From positions 1,798,001 to 1,862,000 of the forward strand of contig MCGE01000008.1 in the NCBI GenBank assembly GCA_002105175.1: a stretch of DNA of 64,000 bases, written 5' to 3'. Source of the DNA: Absidia repens (lineage: Eukaryota > Mucoromycota > Mucoromycetes > Mucorales > Cunninghamellaceae). Position numbers and translations under genes: made by a program. Numbering within the stretch: position 1 is the stretch's first letter; each line of letters starts with the position of its first letter. The notes beneath the pieces are model-generated. The model saw only the letters and a program-made list of their open reading frames with translations, made no database searches and had not been told where the DNA came from. Positions 2,415 to 60,207 of the stretch are shown here, piece by piece.

Positions 2415-3179
2415 AATTATTAGCAAATAGTATATGAACTCAACGGACACAACTGTCCGATCTTTAGAATAAAATATCTTTACAATAAAACATCATCCAT
2501 TTACGAAATTTTATGAATCAATGGTTTTACTTTAGTATATTATGCGGAATTAATTTCAGGACTTGTTGATCCTTCTATTAAAGAGAGAGGGGCTAAAAGC
2601 TTATCAAAAAACTTGATCTAACATAAAGATCTATGACTTTGAAATATTCTTCCATTCCTCCATTCACATCACCGTATCAATGTCACCGCTACTTTTTTTC
2701 CCCTTTTCTGTCACCAGAGCCAACACTTTTTAGACAAACTGTAATTGGCATATACTATCCCCACCATTGCCACTCTATATAATGTGAAATGCAGAGGAAA
2801 AGTACGGTGCAATGGCATTTTTTTTTTTACAGACAAAAAGCAATATCTGTCTACTGACATTTCTAGATCAATATCGCCGCAATTTTCAATTCCTATTGAG
2901 TTACCAGTATTCAACCCCGACCCAGAATACTTTGCATTAATACTACCACTACCGTTGGTACCCTATATAATCCACTTGGTGCGAAATATAGAGGAGACAG
3001 ACAACAAAATATTCTGTAGGGGTCCTTTTTTACACAAGTGCATGCCTTTCTTCCTATACATAGATACACACACAGAGACACGCATACAGAAAGAGATTTT
3101 ATGCTGGTCGTCGGTCATTGAACGAGACAATAAAAGACATGAAAGAGATTTAATGGTACAAAGACAAGTCATGTTTAAT

Positions 3180-3400
3180 TCAGATATGTATACAGTGTAA
3201 ACTATGGCAACTAACACTAGCCTCAGTAATGGCACTACTCTAAGATGACAACTAATCTAACAGAGGTTGGAAATCACGGCCCCAAATTGAAAGGGTTTCC
3301 CCATGATGTTTGTTTTGCATTTTTGAAAATGCCTCTAATTCAAGTTCAAACACTAATACTAGATCACCAGTATCCCAATGAGCCTTGCCATCATATCATT
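3180..3400 (-). repeat. Dispersed repeat copy R6 (degraded, minus)
   Basis: The reverse complement matches the core of the repeat family listed here: 3281-3305 corresponds to GGAAACCCTTTCAATTTGGG. The flanking block about 50-90 nt further, with CTAATTCAAGTTCAAACACT on the plus strand, matches CTAAACTAGTCCTGACACT in copy R5. The head and the tandem tail are not recognisable. Confidence 0.5.
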
Positions 3401-3539
3401 CAGACTTTCATGAGGGAAAAAAAAAGAGGAAAGAAAGGAAAAAAGAGGGAAAAATTGGCCCCCCCAAAAAAATAGAAATCTTGTGTGCGGAGCCGGAAAA
3501 ACACACCTAAACACCATCCTATGTTTCTTTTTCAACACG

Positions 3540-3718
3540 CACAAAAAAATTGTAAATAGCGAGCATTGAGCACGACCAAGGGGGTTACCCACCTTAGTGC
3601 GACTTGGCGGAGGCTTTAGTCCGATCCCATCAAACCACACTTCAATAAAAAGCTCTGACACCCAATAAACCGACAGATTTCTAATAGCTCCAGCGGAGTG
3701 CCTGAGCGTTTATATTAG

Positions 3719-3773
<55 letters not shown>

Positions 3774-3950: not shown

Positions 3951-4274
3951 TCACTTTACTATGGGAGTTTAGGAACCGGCTGATTCTGGGCAATTTTTTT
4001 TTTTTTTTTTTGAAAACTAGATCTAATTTATTGATATACAGATCGGTCGGTAAACAGGGACAAAAAGGTACTATTATACGTGTTTCAGACTTTGTCACAC
4101 AGGAGCGTCGCCATAAAAAACACATTTGATAATAAGGTTGAAAATATCATTTTTATTAGCCATCCCAAACGGACAGAAATGTTCCGTCCGATTCACATAC
4201 TGCTAGTTATTTAAACACTTCGAATTCCAAAAATTTTCTATCTTTTTCTTCATATTTTTTATTAAAACAATAAC

Positions 4275-4814: not shown

Positions 4815-5560
4815 TATAAATAATAAAAATAAATATGAACAAAAATTAAAAACATTATTAGAGGATAAATGAAATAGTAGTTGAGATTTATTTGAATTAT
4901 TTAAAGATTAAAAGTATTTTTAAAGAATAAAAAAAGGTGAAGGATAATGATATCTTTCTAATAAGTTTATATTATATTATGTATTTTATTGTAATAATCT
5001 TTTCTTCCATTATTTTATGTTTTTGAATATAGCAATCCTAGTTGTGAGTCCGTGTATATCATATCGTTGTAGGATTAGTTGTATTTATTAGATCATCTTT
5101 TCAATTTATAATAAACAAAAATATATCTATCTTGAAACAAATATACATTCTTTTGCCGTGTGGTGTGTGATGAGTATGAAGAATTCATGAAAAGAAAAGG
5201 ATATGTGCGAGTCTGTCAAAGAAGATCGACTGTAATTGTATGTCTTTATTGGTGAAAAAAAAAAAAAAAAAGCGAAGGATGATTTCAGGGATATGGATGG
5301 ATAGGACATGATATGCCGCTTGCCTTCAAATAATTCTACAATAGGAATCCACAATAATGATATCAACGGGAAAAGGAAATCGCACGGTTATTGTGTGTGA
5401 AATCGATCTATTGATGTGTGTAGCCATGATATACATGGTAATACAACGCCCTCCTGGGTTCATCCTTTTTTTTTTTTTTTTTATTGAAATGAAAAAGGCT
5501 ACTGAAAAAAAAAAATCAAGGATAATATTTCAGAACTGTGGTTCAACAAGACGCTGCGAA

Positions 5561-6125
5561 AATATTTCAATTCCCGCCCACGTGAATATTTATTTACTCC
5601 CAATTTTTTTTTCCGTCTCTCCCTTTCCATTTTTTTTTTTTTTTTTCACCATTCAACTTTTTTGAGGTCATGGTGATCGTAGATTAGCGTCAAGTCTAAT
5701 TTAGAAGGGATTTCAGCTCAGGGATTACAAGATGCATGGGGAAACCCTTTCATTTTGGATCTAGGATTTAGGACCACCATTAGGTTTTTGAAGACCCCAT
5801 TAGCTTAGTTTAGGATTAGTTTGTTCATAGATTGTACCTACAACTGAATAAAATATGCCTCTTTTACATGCTTCAATGAAAAATAATCTGCTAGTTATTC
5901 TCATGTCTTGTGCAATAGTTCCCATTTTACCATTGCCCATTTAGATTAGCGCTGACAGCGGCCATGCTTCAATAAAAGAGGTTTATCCATTTAAAGTCTT
6001 CTCATGCGCTGTGCAATACAATAGATTAGATCCCTTTTTACAATCGTCCACTCACATTAATGTTGACCATTTTTCACAATCCCCCAACTGTCTCCTTTAT
6101 GCTACCTCCAATAGATCACTTGTAG
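5561..6125 (+). repeat. Dispersed repeat copy R1
   Basis: Head: AATATTTCAATTCCCGCCCA then CGTG (E-box-like CACGTG) at 5561-5584. A T-rich block and TTCACCATTCAACTTTTTTG follow. The core at 5738-5760 is GGGGAAACCCTTTCATTTTG. The tail at about 5840-6125 has imperfect tandem subunits, each with an AATAAAA- or AATGAAA-type motif, a TCATG..TTGTGCAATAG box and TTAGATTAGCGCTGAC. No coding potential. It is closely matched by R3, R4 and R5, and more loosely by R2. Confidence 0.8.
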
Positions 6126-11290: not shown

Positions 11291-11714
11291 CTTTCTATTT
11301 ATATTTAGATCCTGTATACACCCCTCTTCTAATTAAACATGGACGTAATTCCCCTATTTACCAACAACTCCCCCTCTTCTATCATAATTAGTTAAACACA
11401 GATCACACATATCTATCATAAGACAATAAAAATCACATATGAATAAAATATTGATATATGGATCAAGTCTTTTTTATTACAATGACTGATGATACTGTAG
11501 GTAGGCTCTTTTACGATGAGTATTTATACTATTCTACAGTGACGGGCTACATTAAACTAGGCCGACTTGCTCCATCTTGACTGCGAAGAGCCACAGAAGA
11601 AGCCTGCCAATTTTACGACAAGGGTTGGTGGCGATTGCTCTCATGGAAAATCAATACAATGTTGATCATGTTGCAAGATGTTGATATTATAAAAACGAAA
11701 ATACACACACACAA

Positions 11715-12480
11715 AAAAAATCACATGTGCGGGATTTGAAATAACCTCAGTACGGTCTTGCCTTTCCTTGGTTTAATTTTTTTCCCTCTCTTTTCACTTT
11801 CTTTTTTTCTTTCATAACTGTGGATCCTATAAGGTTATGATGGACTTAGATTGGTGTCAGGACTAGTTTAGAAAGGTTTTCAGCTCAGGGATTACACATG
11901 CATGGAGAGACCCTTTCATTTTGGATTCAGGATTTGGGACCACCATTAGTCGGCTTTTTGGAATCGCTATAGTTTAGTTTAGTGTTAGTTAATACATAGT
12001 TTCAATCAATACTTGAATAAAATATACCTCTTTTTACAGAATTCATTTCTCTCTTGCCTTATACTGTACAGTACAGTACAGTAGATCATTTTTTTATGAT
12101 AGCGTCTTTAAATTAGCGTTTACTTGTGTTAGACATCAATAAAAGATACCCCTTTAGTCTCTCGTACCTTGAACTTCACAGTATATTTGTCCTTTTCTAG
12201 AGTTGGGCCTTAGATTAATATTATCCAGTCTTCAAATACCTCTCATGCCTCCACCAATAGATCCTTTATTACAATAAATCCTCCCACCCCGCCTTTAGTT
12301 AGTGTATACCAATATACTTCAAAAAATATCTCCTTTATGAACCATCCTCTGACCAATAGTATAGCGAGCAAAGTAGCCATTGTATCTATTTTTTGCATAC
12401 CTATCAAGCACCTGCGTTCTAGCCCCCCCCCACCATGGCTACTTTTCCCATGTACCCAGAGCCACAACGAATGAATGGCA
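11715..12480 (+). repeat. Dispersed repeat copy R2 (with inverted head)
   Basis: The body is plus-oriented: TGTCAGGACTAGTTTAG at about 11859, core at 11903-11925 (CCCTTTCATTTTGGATTCAG), TTGAATAAAATATACCTC at about 12013, then tail subunits with CATCAATAAAAGAT and AATAGATCC boxes. The head motif at 11721-11750 (ACATGTGCGGGATTTGAAAT) is the reverse complement of the head of R1/R3, so head and body face opposite ways here. Confidence 0.7.
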
Positions 12481-12639
12481 TTTCAAGGTCTCTTACATGA
12501 AACGAGCTCTACTCCTGCTCTGTGCCACCATAGCTCCCTTATAATATTCATCACTGTGACATTTTTACACTACTCTCTTTGGGATTTCAAAATCAACCGA
12601 CTTTTTTTTTTTTTGCACATATGACTTTCGTGACGCGAC

Positions 12640-13560: not shown

Positions 13561-14879
13561 CCTCCATTCTTTTTTTTTTTTTTTTTTTTTTTTTTGAACT
13601 GTCATCTTGAAGATAACGATTTGTTTTGTAGGACTGTTGGGGCCCACGGCAAAGTTTCCATGGCAGTACAGTAGAGTAATAATAGTATATCTTTAGAATT
13701 GCATATTATCATTATCCAATAAAGATTTTTGCAAAATATGTATGTCTAAGAGTTATCTTTGGTTTCTTAAATGGGATACTGGAAGCGGGTACTACAGACT
13801 AAGTACAACTTGTAATTTGGTGATGAAGATCACGATGTCGGAAAGCGGGGAATTAGGCATAAACGGAGTCTGTGCGGTCAAAGCGTGCGGTCAAAGCGAG
13901 CGGCATTATGCTTCTCCTCTGTAAATAATGTGCAAACTATAGTGATCGTTATATGAATATGCTGGAACAAATTTGGATATTAACGAACCTTGACTAATGC
14001 ATGCTTCATTAGAGGGACAATTCCAAAAAAAAAAAAAAAAAAAAAAAAGCACCCAACGCAATCAGGCTGTAGTATATATTGACGTAATCAGATTTTGGCC
14101 ATTCAATCGACGTGGCGTGGTTTATATATGTGTGATAGGGAAAACAAAGAGAAAATTATAACTAATACTTTGTGAAACGAAGGAAGCATTATGATTAATA
14201 TTAAATGTCTTGAAATCGGACCGCTGAACCAGTTGTTTACAACATGATGGGGGTTTTTTTTTTGAGTCGTAGTTACAGTAGGTAGAGTATGAGTGTTGAA
14301 TAGGAAAAAACATAATAAAATGGGGTTGTATCATTGTGGAATAAACATGACTAAAGGTAAACCAGTTAAAATAAAGAGATTAAGCCATTCTGATTCGAGT
14401 GACATACTATTCTAGATTCAGGTACCATCATGCCGTCGATCTTGGACGGTATTCATTGCTTTAAAAGGAAACGGAGTTCACAATACAGCCGTTATTTGAA
14501 GAAGGAGGGGCGCTGTAAAGGGAAGAGTGCAATGGTTGCTCTAAAAAAGAAGAGAGAAAACTACAATGCCACCGGAACTGAACGGCGATGGGTGCTGTAA
14601 AAAGGAATAAAGTGTCGATCCCATCTTAAATGGTGGGGGTTTCCTGTCTTGAGAAGAAGTTGCAACCAATGATGAATGGTGACTTGCTATGATATAAAAA
14701 GAAGAGCTAGCCATCACGTCATCACCGCTGAATGGTGGAGGTTTTCCTTCATTAGAATATAACTACCATGTAGATTATGTTGCATGGTATATAGCTCATT
14801 CTAAAAAAAAAAAGAGAACATTCCGTTTTTGTAACCATCAAAAAAATACCAATCCATTCTCATGAGAGAACCAGGATTT

Positions 14880-15590
14880 TTCTAATCCCGCCCACGTGAA
14901 ACATATATTTTTCTCTCTCCCGCCTTTTTTAATTTCCATTTTTTTCTCACCATTCAACTTTTATGGGGTTATGTTGGATTTAGAATAGTGTCAGGACTAG
15001 TTTAGAAGCGTTTTCAGATCAGGGATTACAAGATGCATGGGAAAACCCTTTCATTTTGGATTCAGGATTCAGAATCACCATTAGCTAGCTTTTTGGAGTC
15101 TTCATTAGCTTAGTTAGTGCTAGGTTGTCCATAGTTTGTGTCTATACCTGAATAAAATATGTCTCTTTTTACTTGTTTCACTCAAATATATCTCATTAGT
15201 CAGTCTCATGTTTTGCACAGTAGATCCTTTTTTTTTTTTTCCTTCATCAATCCCCGTTTGGTTAGTGTTGACCTTTGTTGTGCCTCGATAAAAGATAATA
15301 TTTTCAGCCTCTCTCATGTGTTGTACATTATGTTCCTTTTTAGAATTGTCCTTTTTACATTAGACTTGAGACCATGCCTATACTTGATCAAAAGATCCCT
15401 CAGTCGTCTCCCTCATGTTTTCGCTGTTAAATCCCTTATGACAATGAACACTCCCTTCTCTTTAGTTTTAGTCTCAATCAATATGATTCAAATAAAATTA
15501 TACCTTGTTCTGAACCATTCCATACGACCCCTTTGACTAATGAGCAACATCGTTATTGTAGCTATTTCTTATGAACAAATGTCTGCTTTT
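14880..15590 (+). repeat. Dispersed repeat copy R3
   Basis: Head CCCGCCCACGTGAAACATAT at about 14886; CTCACCATTCAACTTTTATG at about 14946; core at 15038-15061. Four tail subunits follow at about 15150, 15285, 15385 and 15485, each opening with an AATAAAA- or ATAAAAG-like motif and followed by TCTCATGTTTTGCACAGTAG-type boxes. This is the clearest example of the roughly 105-bp tail period. No open reading frame in it carries conserved content. Confidence 0.8.
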
Positions 15591-16836
15591 AAGGGTACCT
15601 ACAGCTACAGCTACTCTCTTCCTCCACACCTACAACAGTAGTCGCTTCAGTGACTGATTGTCAGTTCTAGGTTTACTTTGATTTACAAAGGTGGCCCGTT
15701 GGCCTATATTATATTAGCAACCCGCCCCGCGGCCTGCGAGCACTCTGTCATAATAAATGATTTTATATTGTTTTGTCAATATCTACTCCGCCATATTTGA
15801 AAAGATTCTTATTTTGATCTGCATTGAAGTCAGAGCACCTACATTGAATCTTCCATTACGGAACGACACTTGACTCACTCGGGAGGATGATTTTGTGTAC
15901 CATGTTCAGCGGTTTCAAGCCTTAACTGAAAATAGGTAATTTGCTTTGGGTTGTTAGCTTTGGACAGTGGGGACGTCGAATCTCAGATCAGGGGGTATTC
16001 GGCAAATTTGTAAAAGAAACATTGTATCCGTCTAGCTTTGAAGAGAGCTATGGCTCAATATCCTATTTCTGATCCATATCTGATCCATAACAAAACAAGT
16101 ATGAAACTCTTTACACACCGCTTTACAGCTTTATTTTTTTGTAACACATGATCGAGCTCAGCAAACATATCTTTGAAGGCTCGCGCTGCAAACCATTGGT
16201 CATGTTTTGGAGATCATGCTGTTTGGAGTCAAACATAATGAAAAAAAAGGAGGCCTTTGGGACATGATATTGATTTGGGGGGCATGGATTGGACGTAGTA
16301 GTTTTTATTTTCTTTAGCATTAGCATCGCTTTTTGTTTAATAATTATAATAATAGTAATAATAAATAATAATAATGAACTGAAAACCTACTTGGTAATAA
16401 ATGATATTTATGTCATAGTGAAAGAGGAAGAGGAGGCAAAGCAATGTGGCTGCGATGATATTAAAAGGTGGGGAGTTACGGAAATGAGGCCGAAAATTTC
16501 AAAAAGCTTTTTCTGATATGCAGATCTCCGATATGGTGCGACCACAAGGAATTCGGGTAAATTATATGCGAAGAGGTGAAATAAGTTCTAATCTGATCTG
16601 AATGATAATGTGTATTTAATTAAAGGATCCGTTAGAGTATCGTGACCTGGGGCAGCAACCCTTCCGATTGAGTTTTGAGTCATCTTAAGGGTGCCGAATA
16701 CTGAAAAAGCAGAGACCTTCAGAATCACGGAGTTTAAATCAGATTCAGTTTTTGATATATAAAAAAATCTTATTAGCCCAGTTCTGTCAATTTTTTTTTC
16801 TTTTCCCTTATCAATTTTTTTTTTATAATTCACAAA

Positions 16837-39504: not shown

Positions 39505-41897
39505 TTAGTTAGATTTTATTCCATGGATTAGATACGTGTCATTTTAGTGTAGTATATTGAAATAAAGTTTTACAAGCGTTTTTTTTTTTATATATTCTCT
39601 GTCTCATATTTGTTTTATTTTTCATATTTATACATAAAGCGCGGGTCAAATTTTTATATTCAACTGTATATCGCAAAAAACAAAAACAAAACTTGGTCTA
39701 CTAGGTGTCATAGTGAAGGGAAGGGGGTGGGGACGGAGATTGTTGAAAAGTGTGGTTTTTTATGAAATTGGACAAACCATCTGCCATTTTAGCACCTTAG
39801 TATATGGTCCCTTGGAGCTCAACTGGATTTGGTTTTGGCTTTTTATAATTATTATTATTATTATTATATCACATGCAAAATAAAAATAAAATAAAAAAAC
39901 AACAAGCTGGATATACACAGTATGGTTAGGGTAGTGGGATGTTACGCTGACGATACGGTCCATGTTGATTGATATGAATGATAGAGTGGGAAATATGGCC
40001 ACGATTGTTTCATATTCAGTGAATTGGAAACTGTCTGCCACTCACCAAGTCTCTAGGGAAAGCAGGGAGAAGGGTGATCTGGTACTTACACTCACAAAAA
40101 AATTACAATAGCGATATTGTTTATTAAGCAGTAATTCAGAGGAAGATGAATAAAAAAAAACACATATTTTATTGAAACATACTGGTTGATACTAAAACTA
40201 AAGACAAGAGGGATGGAGATGGGATTCACGGTAACAAAGGACGGGATGGAAGGGATCTAATGGTGGAAGCGTGAGGGAGACTAACGTGAGATTCAAAAAA
40301 AAAAAAAAAAAAAAAAAAAATGCCCAGCTCTAATCTAAAGGACAGTTGCAAAGTGGGAGTTATGTACTGTACATGGGATGAGAATAACTAAAAGGATTTC
40401 TCCTAATGAAGCACAACGGTCAACATTGATCAACAGACGATAGTGGTAGTAAAAGACATATACATATATATATGCACAACACATGAAGAAAACTAATGGA
40501 GAAACATTTCATTGAACAAGTAAAAAGACATATTTTATTCAGACATATTTACAAATTATGGACAAACTGATACTAAACTAAATTAATGGAGGCTCTAAAA
40601 AGTCAGCTAATGGTGACTTCAGATCCTGGATCCAAAATGAAAGGGTTTCCCCATGCATCTTGTTGTCCCTGAGCCGAAACACCTTCTAAACTAGTCCTGA
40701 CACTAATCTAAGATCATTATGCCCACAAAGATGTCGAAAGGTGAAGAAGAAAAAAGAAAAGAAAAAAAGGAACGAAAAGAAAAGAAATAAAAATTGGGAG
40801 TAAATTTATATTGCACGTGGGCGGGATTTGAAATGGGTTGATTTTTTTTCTAGGATGAAGTCATAAAAGGAAAACCACACTCTCTTTGACAACAATCATC
40901 ATCAATACATGCAGCATGGTTATTCTTTTTTCTTGATGCCTTTATTGACAATATGCAGCAATCCGGTTCAGTTTAATTAACTCCTTTATTGTACAGTATA
41001 TAGAATAGCTTGTCACTCACTGTATGATAGGATTGCTTATCTTCTTTCTTTAGGCTCTGCCTTATTTAATGTTGTTTTTATTTTGCAACAAGAGATTTAC
41101 ACACATGTACATTTACATACTAAAAGTCTAACGTTTTGATAGGTGTCATGGTATCACCATTGGTCTCACAGTTTAATTTAAAATCATAGTTTGTATACTA
41201 TTCAAATTTGAATAAAATATGTCTTGTCAGATGGGTATATACATAGTATTATACGTACTGTGCATGTGCATGTTGAAAAAAAAAGGTTGATGTATGTGTG
41301 CAAAAAATAAGGACGCATAAAAAAGTAAGTAGTGAGTGCAGTGCATCTGAAGATATTGAGTTTATCCGCATATATATATTATATATTCGACAAACGTCAT
41401 GGTGTCGCAATATCTCGACTTTTCAACCAAATCCAGCCAATTTCAAAAATCCATGGCAACGCCTTTGTAATCCTCACTAACCACGTAACTTTGTTCTTTT
41501 CCTGTTATACCATCATATTACGTGGTTTAAAGTAGAAATATCATGTGGCATTTTCAGTCAGGCCTATTTTTTTCTTTTCTTTTTTAGCGTTCTTGCTGAG
41601 CACTGCACTATAATACTTCCAAATGCCATCCTATTCTCCAATTCTCTTACTCAAGCCAATATATATCCCACCCATCGCATCGCACATCAAATTTTAATCA
41701 GCATCCCCCTCCCATTTCAATACGATAACATTTCAGGAACATGGATATTAAATATAAAACTTTCCAAAAACGGAATAATTTATTGATATATATAGATATA
41801 TAGAAAAAGGTGGAATACTAACATAAAACAGCAGGAATAACATAAAAGAATCAAAAAATATATACAAAACTAACTAGAGGAGGTAAAATAAATCAAA
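39505..41897. other. 2.4-kb gene-free stretch with repeat copy R5
   Basis: No supported gene. It holds repeat copy R5 (minus), a short plus-strand fragment resembling the repeat body at about 41150-41230 (GTTTGTATACTATTC then TTTGAATAAAATATGTC), a 24-nt A run at about 40297 and an ATT triplet run at about 39847. The 3' flank of the oxidase gene is at the end. Confidence 0.5.
40505..40860 (-). repeat. Dispersed repeat copy R5 (minus)
   Basis: The reverse complement gives, in order, the head TTTCAAATCCCGCCCACGTG (about 40815-40840), ATTTACTCCCAATTTT as in R1, the TGTCAGGACTAGTTTAGAAG block, the core (40630-40653, the complement of CCAAAATGAAAGGGTTTCCC), and the ATAAAATATGTC motif at about 40530. 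Head-to-core spacing (about 160 nt) equals that of R1. The tandem tail appears truncated. Confidence 0.8.
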
Positions 41898-58608: not shown

Positions 58609-59114
58609 GGTCTTGTCTTGATCTACTTTATCATGGTCTGTCTGATCGATTCTTCATGCCTTAGCTTAATTACCCTCTTTCCTCTACCACATATTGTATA
58701 GTTTTATTTGTTTATTTCATTCGCTTTTAGTTTTATCTTCCTCTCTCTATTCATTCCCATTCCCCTCTTCTTCTTTTTTTTTTTCTTTTTTTGGTCAAAT
58801 AAAAATAAAATAAAAAAATTACGTTTTAGTGAAACACATTTTTATGCATAGGATAACTGACACAAGTGATGCCGTGATGGGGTTCGTGTGTGTGTTTGGA
58901 AAAGGGCAACAAACGGGTTCTTATATAAATTGACACTTGGCACCATCGGATGGGTGGATTGGAAAAGGTAGGATGGTATTAGTGCCACCGCAGGGATAAA
59001 AAAAAAAAAAAAAAAAAAAAAAAAGGTCGTCTTGGATATTTGAAGTTGGTCCGTTTTGGCTGAAGGGTCAAACGCAAGTTTTTCTTACACAGCGCGTGCA
59101 CAGAGAAAAATAGT

Positions 59115-59860
59115 TTAAATATCCGCCCACATGAATATTTATTTCTTTTTTTTTTTTTTTTTTTTTTTTCTCACTCTCTTTTTATTTCTTCATTTTTTTT
59201 CTTCGCTATTCAACTTTTTTGAGGCTCTATGATCTTAGAATAGTGTCAGGATTAGTTTAGAAGGGGATTCAGCTCAGGAATGACAACCTGTATGGGGAAC
59301 CCTTTCATTTTGGATTTAGGATTTTGGAAGCACCATCAGTTGGCTTTTTGAAGCCTCCATTAGCTTAGTTTAGTGCTAGTTTGTCCGTAGTTTGTGTCTA
59401 TATCTGAATAAACGATGTCTATTTTTACATCCTTCAATGAAATACGTCCCACTAGTCTCTATCCTGCTTCGCACAACAGATTCCTTTTTTATTTTTTCTT
59501 AATACCATCAATCCCGTCTGATTAGTGTTAGCCATGTTGTGTTTTCAATAAAAAGATTCACTATAACCTTTTTTCATTCCATCCACAGTATGTAAACTCC
59601 CGTTTTTACAATCTCCCCTTTAGATTAGTGTTGACCATTCCTTAAATCTCGCATTAGTCTCCCTCATACTTCTTCCATTAGATCTTTCCCTGTACAAAGA
59701 AACCCCTTTTCGTCTTTCGTTTTAGTATCTACCAATATGCTTCAATAAAATATGCTCTTTTTTTTATTTTTTATTCGTCATCTTCGTACTCTATTCATTA
59801 TATAGTAAACAAGGTTGTTATTGTAGCTGTTTTGTAAATGGCCAATCAAACGCTTGTTCT
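59115..59860 (+). repeat. Dispersed repeat copy R4
   Basis: Head TTAAATATCCGCCCACATGA at about 59115-59134 (E-box changed to CACATG), GCTATTCAACTTTTTTGAGG at about 59205, TGTCAGGATTAGTTTAGAAG at about 59243, core at 59293-59315, CTGAATAAACGATGTC at about 59403. Tail subunits open at about 59435, 59545, 59640 and 59741, the last being CTTCAATAAAATATGC. It ends near TTATTGTAGCTGTTTTGTAA, as R3 does (TTATTGTAGCTATTTCTTAT). Confidence 0.8.
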
Positions 59861-60171
59861 CTAATTTATCCACCACTATGATTACTTCCCTCTCCATCCC
59901 CCTCCCCCTAAAGACCCAAGGACTGACGATCGATCTTAGATTGATTATTATCAAAGACACCCATATTTCCGCTTGACCGATTTTATAAAGTGAATATAGG
60001 TTGTGCTATGAGTGTATCCGCCACGATAGAGCATTTTGCATTATCCCAAATCTTATCTGTGACTAGTGCGTCATTTCCCTCTCACCCCCACCTTGTGTCC
60101 GTGCGACTTGTTACATAATGCTTTTTCATAAATGATTATAGCATATTCTCATTCTATGAATTCGATTACAT

Positions 60172-60207
<36 letters not shown>

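Follow-up and report, generated by a model that had tools for sequence, protein, structure and literature searches.

The question raised by this locus is what kind of DNA recurs in it. The window (the whole 64-kb stretch of DNA that was analysed) carries six copies of a repeat, R1 to R6, which the sequence-only reading had described as a single family of fixed layout, either a transposon or a family of non-coding RNA genes. We compared the copies with each other and searched the genome (47.4 Mb, 79 contigs) for their relatives.

Copies in the window and in the genome

Self-BLAST of the window joined ten of the ten possible pairs among R1–R5, with 70–82% identity and a best E of 8e-78. These five copies belong to one family, F1. 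R6, which had been taken for a degraded sixth member, was missing from these pairs and belongs to a sister family, F2. The six-copy family therefore held for R1–R5 only. The copies and their modules are as follows.

5509..6123, +: R1, an F1 copy (profile hit over the same interval, E 4.9e-179; module hits)
5564-5595, 5714-5760 and 5795-5865, +: R1 head, core (position read from the sequence) and AATAAA end module
5735..5758, +: the 24-nt motif CATGGGGAAACCCTTTCATTTTGG, common to F1 and F2, as it stands in R1
11500..12540, +: R2, an F1 copy with a left arm at 11500-11812 (profile hit 11770-12520, +; module hits)
11742-11715 (on -), 11826-11949 and 11969-12035: R2 inverted head, core block and end module
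14683..15796, +: R3, an F1 copy with a partial left arm (from 14683) and a tandem-unit tail (profile hit 14799-15717, +; module hits)
14884-14911, 14952-15084 and 15100-15171, +: R3 head, core block and end module
59099..60161, +: R4, an F1 copy with a tandem-unit tail (profile hit over the same interval, E 1.3e-226; module hits)
59114-59144, 59208-59339 and 59354-59427, +: R4 head, core block and end module
39622..41310, -: R5, the fullest F1 copy in the window (profile hit 40881-39622, -; module hits)
41310-40850: R5 left arm, including an inverted end module at 41185-41224 on + (weak hit, E 0.014)
40834-40812, 40738-40607 and 40592-40523, -: R5 head, core block and end module, followed by the tail
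39730-39883: R5 inverted T module
3134..3660, -: R6, an F2 copy, whose nearest genomic relative is 91% identical (weak profile hit 3467-3134, -)
3660-3528, 3381-3259 and 3229-3167, -: R6 T module, core block (hairpin and core) and end module

The window also encodes a RICTOR-like protein and contains two long homopolymer runs (49 A at 3721-3769 and 29 T at 60176-60204). Among named proteins, the one nearest to this RICTOR-like protein is from Phycomyces blakesleeanus (74% over 81% of the query), with an unnamed protein closer still at 81%; the host would accordingly be a fungus of the Mucorales or near them.

When R1 and R4 were used as whole-genome queries, 3,415 and 3,076 first-look candidates were obtained, respectively, and all of the 40 candidates scored for each query were matches (query included). 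The 38-nt core GATTACAAGATGCATGGGGAAACCCTTTCATTTTGGAT was found at 2,615 genome places with at most 3 mismatches (1,295 + 1,320), and the same 38-mer read backwards as a control was found at none. The head 22-mer occurred at 1,630 places with at most 2 mismatches (control, 0), and the profile of F1, to which F2 copies respond as well, hit four of five arbitrary 10-kb pieces (L061–L065). These results showed that the repeat is real and far beyond chance, and that the family extends from the copies first noticed to thousands in the genome.

A Poisson mismatch model gave an estimate of about 3,000 copies from the core and the end-module 38-mers alike. When the end-module counts (44 places with one mismatch and 6 with none) were used in a different way, 6,100 copies resulted, so the copy number is certain only within a factor of about 2. 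The number of exact core matches used in the fit, 407–438, was extrapolated from at least 100 places and is rough. About 115 F1 and 14 F2 sequences were used in total. The exact core was found at 0 and 0 places in two contig sets of viral, bacterial and archaeal origin, which are silent on its spread among fungi. Among titles and the opening parts of abstracts, no description of the family was found, and four substrings of the core were absent from the full texts searched.

The F2 set consisted of R6, L064b and 12 fetched sequences. With R6 as query, relatives at 81–91% identity were found among the best 40 of 776 first-look candidates, which were scored. In the 14 F2 sequences the hairpin GCATTTT-AAAATGC precedes CAAACATCATGGGGAAACCCTTTCATTTTGG, and a few changes occur among them. 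Its six-pair stem was paired in 84 of 84 cells, including one compensated A-T to G-C change in one copy. The majority sequences of F1 and F2 are identical over 26 consecutive nucleotides of the core and partly alike in the end module, whereas the stretch 5' of the core differs. The shared 24-mer was found at 4,118 genome places with at most 2 mismatches (backwards control, 0). Judged by these sequences, the superfamily holds at least two families, F1 and F2. The T module stands at the left end of R6 and L064b, the two F2 copies with enough flank. In L064b, T modules flank the copy on both sides as direct repeats (153 bp, 69% identity; L064 8297-8460 and 9194-9329), which is a possible terminal direct repeat.

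Anatomy and age of the units

The F1 unit is modular and about 1–1.7 kb long, which is longer than had been claimed. It begins with the head TTTCAAATCCCGCCCACGTGAATATTTATTT, of the GC-box/E-box type, which is followed by a pyrimidine tract, TTCACCATTCAAC, a block with GTCAGGACTAGTTTAGAAGGG and then the core. On the 3' side of the core, the stretch from CATTAGCTTAG to GAATAAAATATGTC forms the end module with its AATAAA, and about 100-bp tandem units follow, several of which contain GCTTCAATAAAA. The gene-like anatomy (E-box, pyrimidine tract and AATAAA) was kept across 59 aligned copies. The reported head-to-core spacing was also confirmed, with about 145–170 nt by eye from CACGTG to the core in R1, R3, R4 and R5.

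The extent of the unit was read from colinear similarity among 59 oriented loci. From -150 to -100, the position of the head, the number of similar ordered pairs rose from 135 to 2,277 of 3,422, and at least 3,400 pairs were similar across the core block. The conserved left edge is TTTCAAATCCCGCCC. To the right the fall was gradual (2,099 pairs at +400, 984 at +500 and 160 at +650 from the block start), and similarity faded about 1.1 kb from the block start when read by eye. The outer ends of the copies are AT-rich and fuzzy.

In some F1 copies a left arm of about 600 bp is present, and its outer part carries the end module in inverted form (alignment score 106, against a mean of 42 and a maximum of 62 in 200 shuffles). 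Such inverted end modules, 200–600 bp left of the core block, were found in a minority of copies (13 hits over 59 loci). The two arms were also compared outside the end module, and homology was rejected there, as the score of 37.0 was not above the shuffles (mean 36.2). Because the head of R2 is inverted relative to its core and the end modules of left arms are inverted as well, F1 modules can turn round. The order of modules is broadly kept in F1, but the layout is not wholly fixed as had been thought. In the left arm of R3 (window 14400-14800), several diverged GGTGG..GGTTT.C repeats are seemingly present by eye. Another locus, L020 (C6:2336-3092, near a contig start), is an F1 copy with a partial second copy directly after it.

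As the sequence-only reading stated, no conserved ORF was found: invariance is much the same at the three codon positions of the core, and a TAG is present in about half of the 59 copies. A small peptide in the core, MHGETLSFWI..., was rejected on the same grounds, with equal conservation of codon positions and stops in many copies. A candidate F1 stem, GGG.TTTC / GAAACCC, received no covariation support, with 132 of 891 cells broken and 6 double changes. RNAalifold with default settings gave a six-pair structure of -0.8 kcal/mol for 59 sequences (shuffled columns -0.08, sd 0.22). The reverse strand gave -2.6, and RIBOSUM scoring gave -38.9, a figure without shuffled control.

Measured outside the core, R1, R2, R3, R4 and R5 are 17.8, 26.3, 17.2, 18.3 and 24.1% away from their closest sampled relatives, respectively, and the median nearest-neighbour divergence of 113 aligned copies is 17.4%. 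With relatives at such distances, the family is old. The best whole-genome matches of R1, R4 and parts of R5 (with core) and R3 (without core), with 40 candidates scored each, were of a similar order, and identity above 80% was reached over short stretches only. Among the copies scored, recent ones were absent except the pair L005/L024 (C3:666887-669387). These two F1 copies, separated by about 1.5 kb with their heads facing each other, are 2.2% diverged outside the core and represent a recent local inverted duplication. One copy, L058, acts as a hub, being the nearest neighbour of 9 of the 15 closest-listed copies at 8.4–13.2%. Linked diagnostic sites (29/30; 36/39/41/42; 155/180/184/218) show that real subfamilies exist, as in a mobile element. 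Core positions 29/30 of F1 read CT or TC in 92 of the 112 copies bearing letters there, with CC or TT rare, perhaps reflecting two old subfamilies split at neighbouring bases.

Slow divergence of the core and its explanation

Divergence in the core is about 2–3 times lower than in most of the sequence around it, and this is also true of copies picked without the core. In 31 copies picked by tail similarity only, the core (-18..+28) was 93.1% identical to the majority, versus 82.8% both at -95..-40 and at +29..+75. The stretch -40..-20 was also slow (91.5%), and the head reached 85.8%. In 20 copies picked by the end module, the core was 93.7% identical, versus 77.0% (-95..-40) and 83.3% (+29..+75). 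The contrast between core and flank is seen whichever base is the consensus one. The core is not alone in being slow, since the AATAAA stretch changes no faster. Over 113 copies, the core/flank divergence ratio was 0.51 for nearest neighbours and 0.41 for all pairs. The 14 F2 sequences repeat the pattern (core 4.3%, next 60 nt 11.0%). Genome-wide, a 38-mer of the end module, about 100 nt from the core, was found at 405 places with at most 3 mismatches, versus 2,615 for the core; Poisson fits correspond roughly to 6.3 and 2.0 mismatches per 38 nt, respectively.

Change along the branches was counted by parsimony on a tree built from the flanks. The terminal-branch core/flank ratio was 0.47 (95%, 0.37–0.59). 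This tree is weak: when the tips were shuffled, the core counts hardly changed and the terminal flank counts went up by about 1/5 to 1/4. Seven of the 47 core sites had 0–1 changes in 111 copies. Low-frequency variants per site amounted to 2.17 copies in the core and 1.81–2.77 elsewhere. Such equal density is expected without present selection, although flank saturation weakens the test. Common minor alleles numbered 0.17 per site in the core and 0.39–0.71 in other regions, except for 0.19 at -40..-19. L046, which is the same place as L005, was left out of all counts. L001 and L031 (the places of R1 and R4) were left out of the divergence, variant-density, tree, stem and invariant-site counts; L024 was also left out of all of these except divergence, and R2 also of the tree and invariant-site counts.

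The explanation that we tentatively place first, at somewhat below an even chance, is an old dispersed non-coding superfamily of probably mobile origin, built like a Pol II gene, in which the core is still constrained copy by copy. The GC-box/E-box head would be a putative promoter; a putative transcript of about 300 nt may have its start marked by the pyrimidine tract and TTCACCATTCAAC and its end by AATAAA. The core, in F2 with the hairpin in front, would bind a putative partner, either as RNA or as a DNA site, and the host might retain constrained copies for a task of its own, for example to mark or silence the 3' ends of genes. Also quite plausible, to a lesser degree, is a purely selfish non-autonomous element that is nearly extinct and needed its core for transcription or mobilisation while active. 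Copies would then decay neutrally after insertion, so that core divergence would mainly be time since insertion and the extra divergence of the flanks would be older subfamily diversity. The linked subfamily sites, the hub L058 with its relatives at 8.4–13.2%, the equal density of low-frequency variants and the rarity of common minor alleles in the core all speak for such an element. However, R1–R5 are without close siblings (nearest 17–26% away), the terminal-branch ratio still stands at 0.47, if on a weak tree, and the seven nearly unchanged sites are hard to square with about 5% neutral decay. It is very improbable that gene conversion keeps the core alike without selection, the core being merely the longest near-identical stretch. 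Thousands of near-identical short tracts are at hand for conversion, and the pair L005/L024 is a recent local inverted one, but near-invariant sites directly adjoin the two-state sites 29/30, and F1 and F2 retain the same core despite differing surroundings.

The repeat could also be a known class seen in part, namely a MITE, a solo LTR/TRIM or a tRNA-derived SINE, to which its high copy number, short length and lack of a conserved ORF would be suited. We regard this as improbable. Long terminal inverted repeats were apparent only with minus-strand loci left un-reoriented and were gone once the loci were oriented, and a scan of 60 loci for the head (at most 3 mismatches) found none or one per locus. 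The T module at the right end of F1 gave 22 hits, 20 of them inverted, and 0 left of the core in 59 loci. A T-run with GCACA, tried as a terminal direct repeat, was present at the left end in 1 of 59 loci and was rejected. As to a solo LTR or TRIM, the conserved left edge is unlike an LTR start, the right edge is indistinct, and L064b of F2 has its possible terminal direct repeat. A SINE with a Pol III head derived from tRNA, 5S or 7SL is opposed by the absence of tRNA (ARAGORN) and of Rfam families at gathering in the window; two Rfam hits in R5, with E 2.2 and 4.1, fell far short of gathering. The broad choice offered by the sequence-only reading, a transposon or a non-coding RNA family, still fits, and the classes it named (TRIM, solo LTR, SINE-like) were unsupported as tested. 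The choice between a mobile element and a non-coding RNA gene family is hard to decide.

In the genome, at least 150 RVT_1 matches were observed (150 scored of 213 candidates; on C10, C17, C23, C45 and others). Many lie in open frames of more than 800 and up to 1,689 codons, and several have identical scores; the loci are possibly young, intact retroelements. Because there are so many reverse-transcriptase matches in long open frames, a retrotransposition machinery may exist.

Genomic setting and relation to known systems

To survey the orientation of neighbouring reading frames, the longest frame free of stops over at least 100 codons was taken on either side of 59 loci, among them R1 and R4. 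This frame pointed towards the element in 32 of 42 cases on the left (two-sided p 0.0009) and 29 of 36 on the right (two-sided p 0.0003). In the 29 loci framed on both flanks, 16 pairs were convergent, 13 tandem and 0 divergent (p 0.0002 against an assumed share of one quarter). Single frames may be wrong, and at R4 an antisense frame was picked. Against the trend, a 6-kb gap that separates diverging RGS and glycosyltransferase genes holds both R2 and R3; an intervening gene is possible there. For an ordinary mobile element, the trend would be explicable by selection against insertion near promoters. A bolder reading, which we consider rather doubtful, is that several thousand copies are individually functional. 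Each would be a Pol II-type unit, mostly at gene 3' ends, with a core of 26–47 nt, common to the two diverged families, under copy-by-copy purifying selection, for example in an RNA or DNA-protein system that marks or insulates converging genes.

If the core is selected in each copy, the family would form an exceptionally large collection of functional non-coding loci born by dispersal, and a natural test of mobile DNA turning into a regulatory or RNA system. If it is not selected, the repeat is still very abundant, since F1 is estimated at 3,000 copies or more, each of about 1 kb, which together make up several percent of the genome, and it matches no standard class among those tested.

Non-autonomous transposable elements (MITE, SINE, TRIM) are high-copy, dispersed and non-coding, with linked subfamily sites, and the present repeat is alike in all of these features. 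Unlike them, it showed no terminal inverted repeats, Pol III-type head or clear LTR edges, and its old copies have a core about 2–3 times less diverged than most surroundings. With multicopy non-coding RNA gene families it shares the promoter-like head, the start-like motif, the AATAAA end and the conserved internal core, and in F2 the hairpin; it differs from them in having no Rfam match and thousands of diverged copies. It can also be likened to DINE-1/INE-1, the non-autonomous Helentrons of Drosophila (PMC4067079), which are likewise a very abundant dispersed non-coding repeat.
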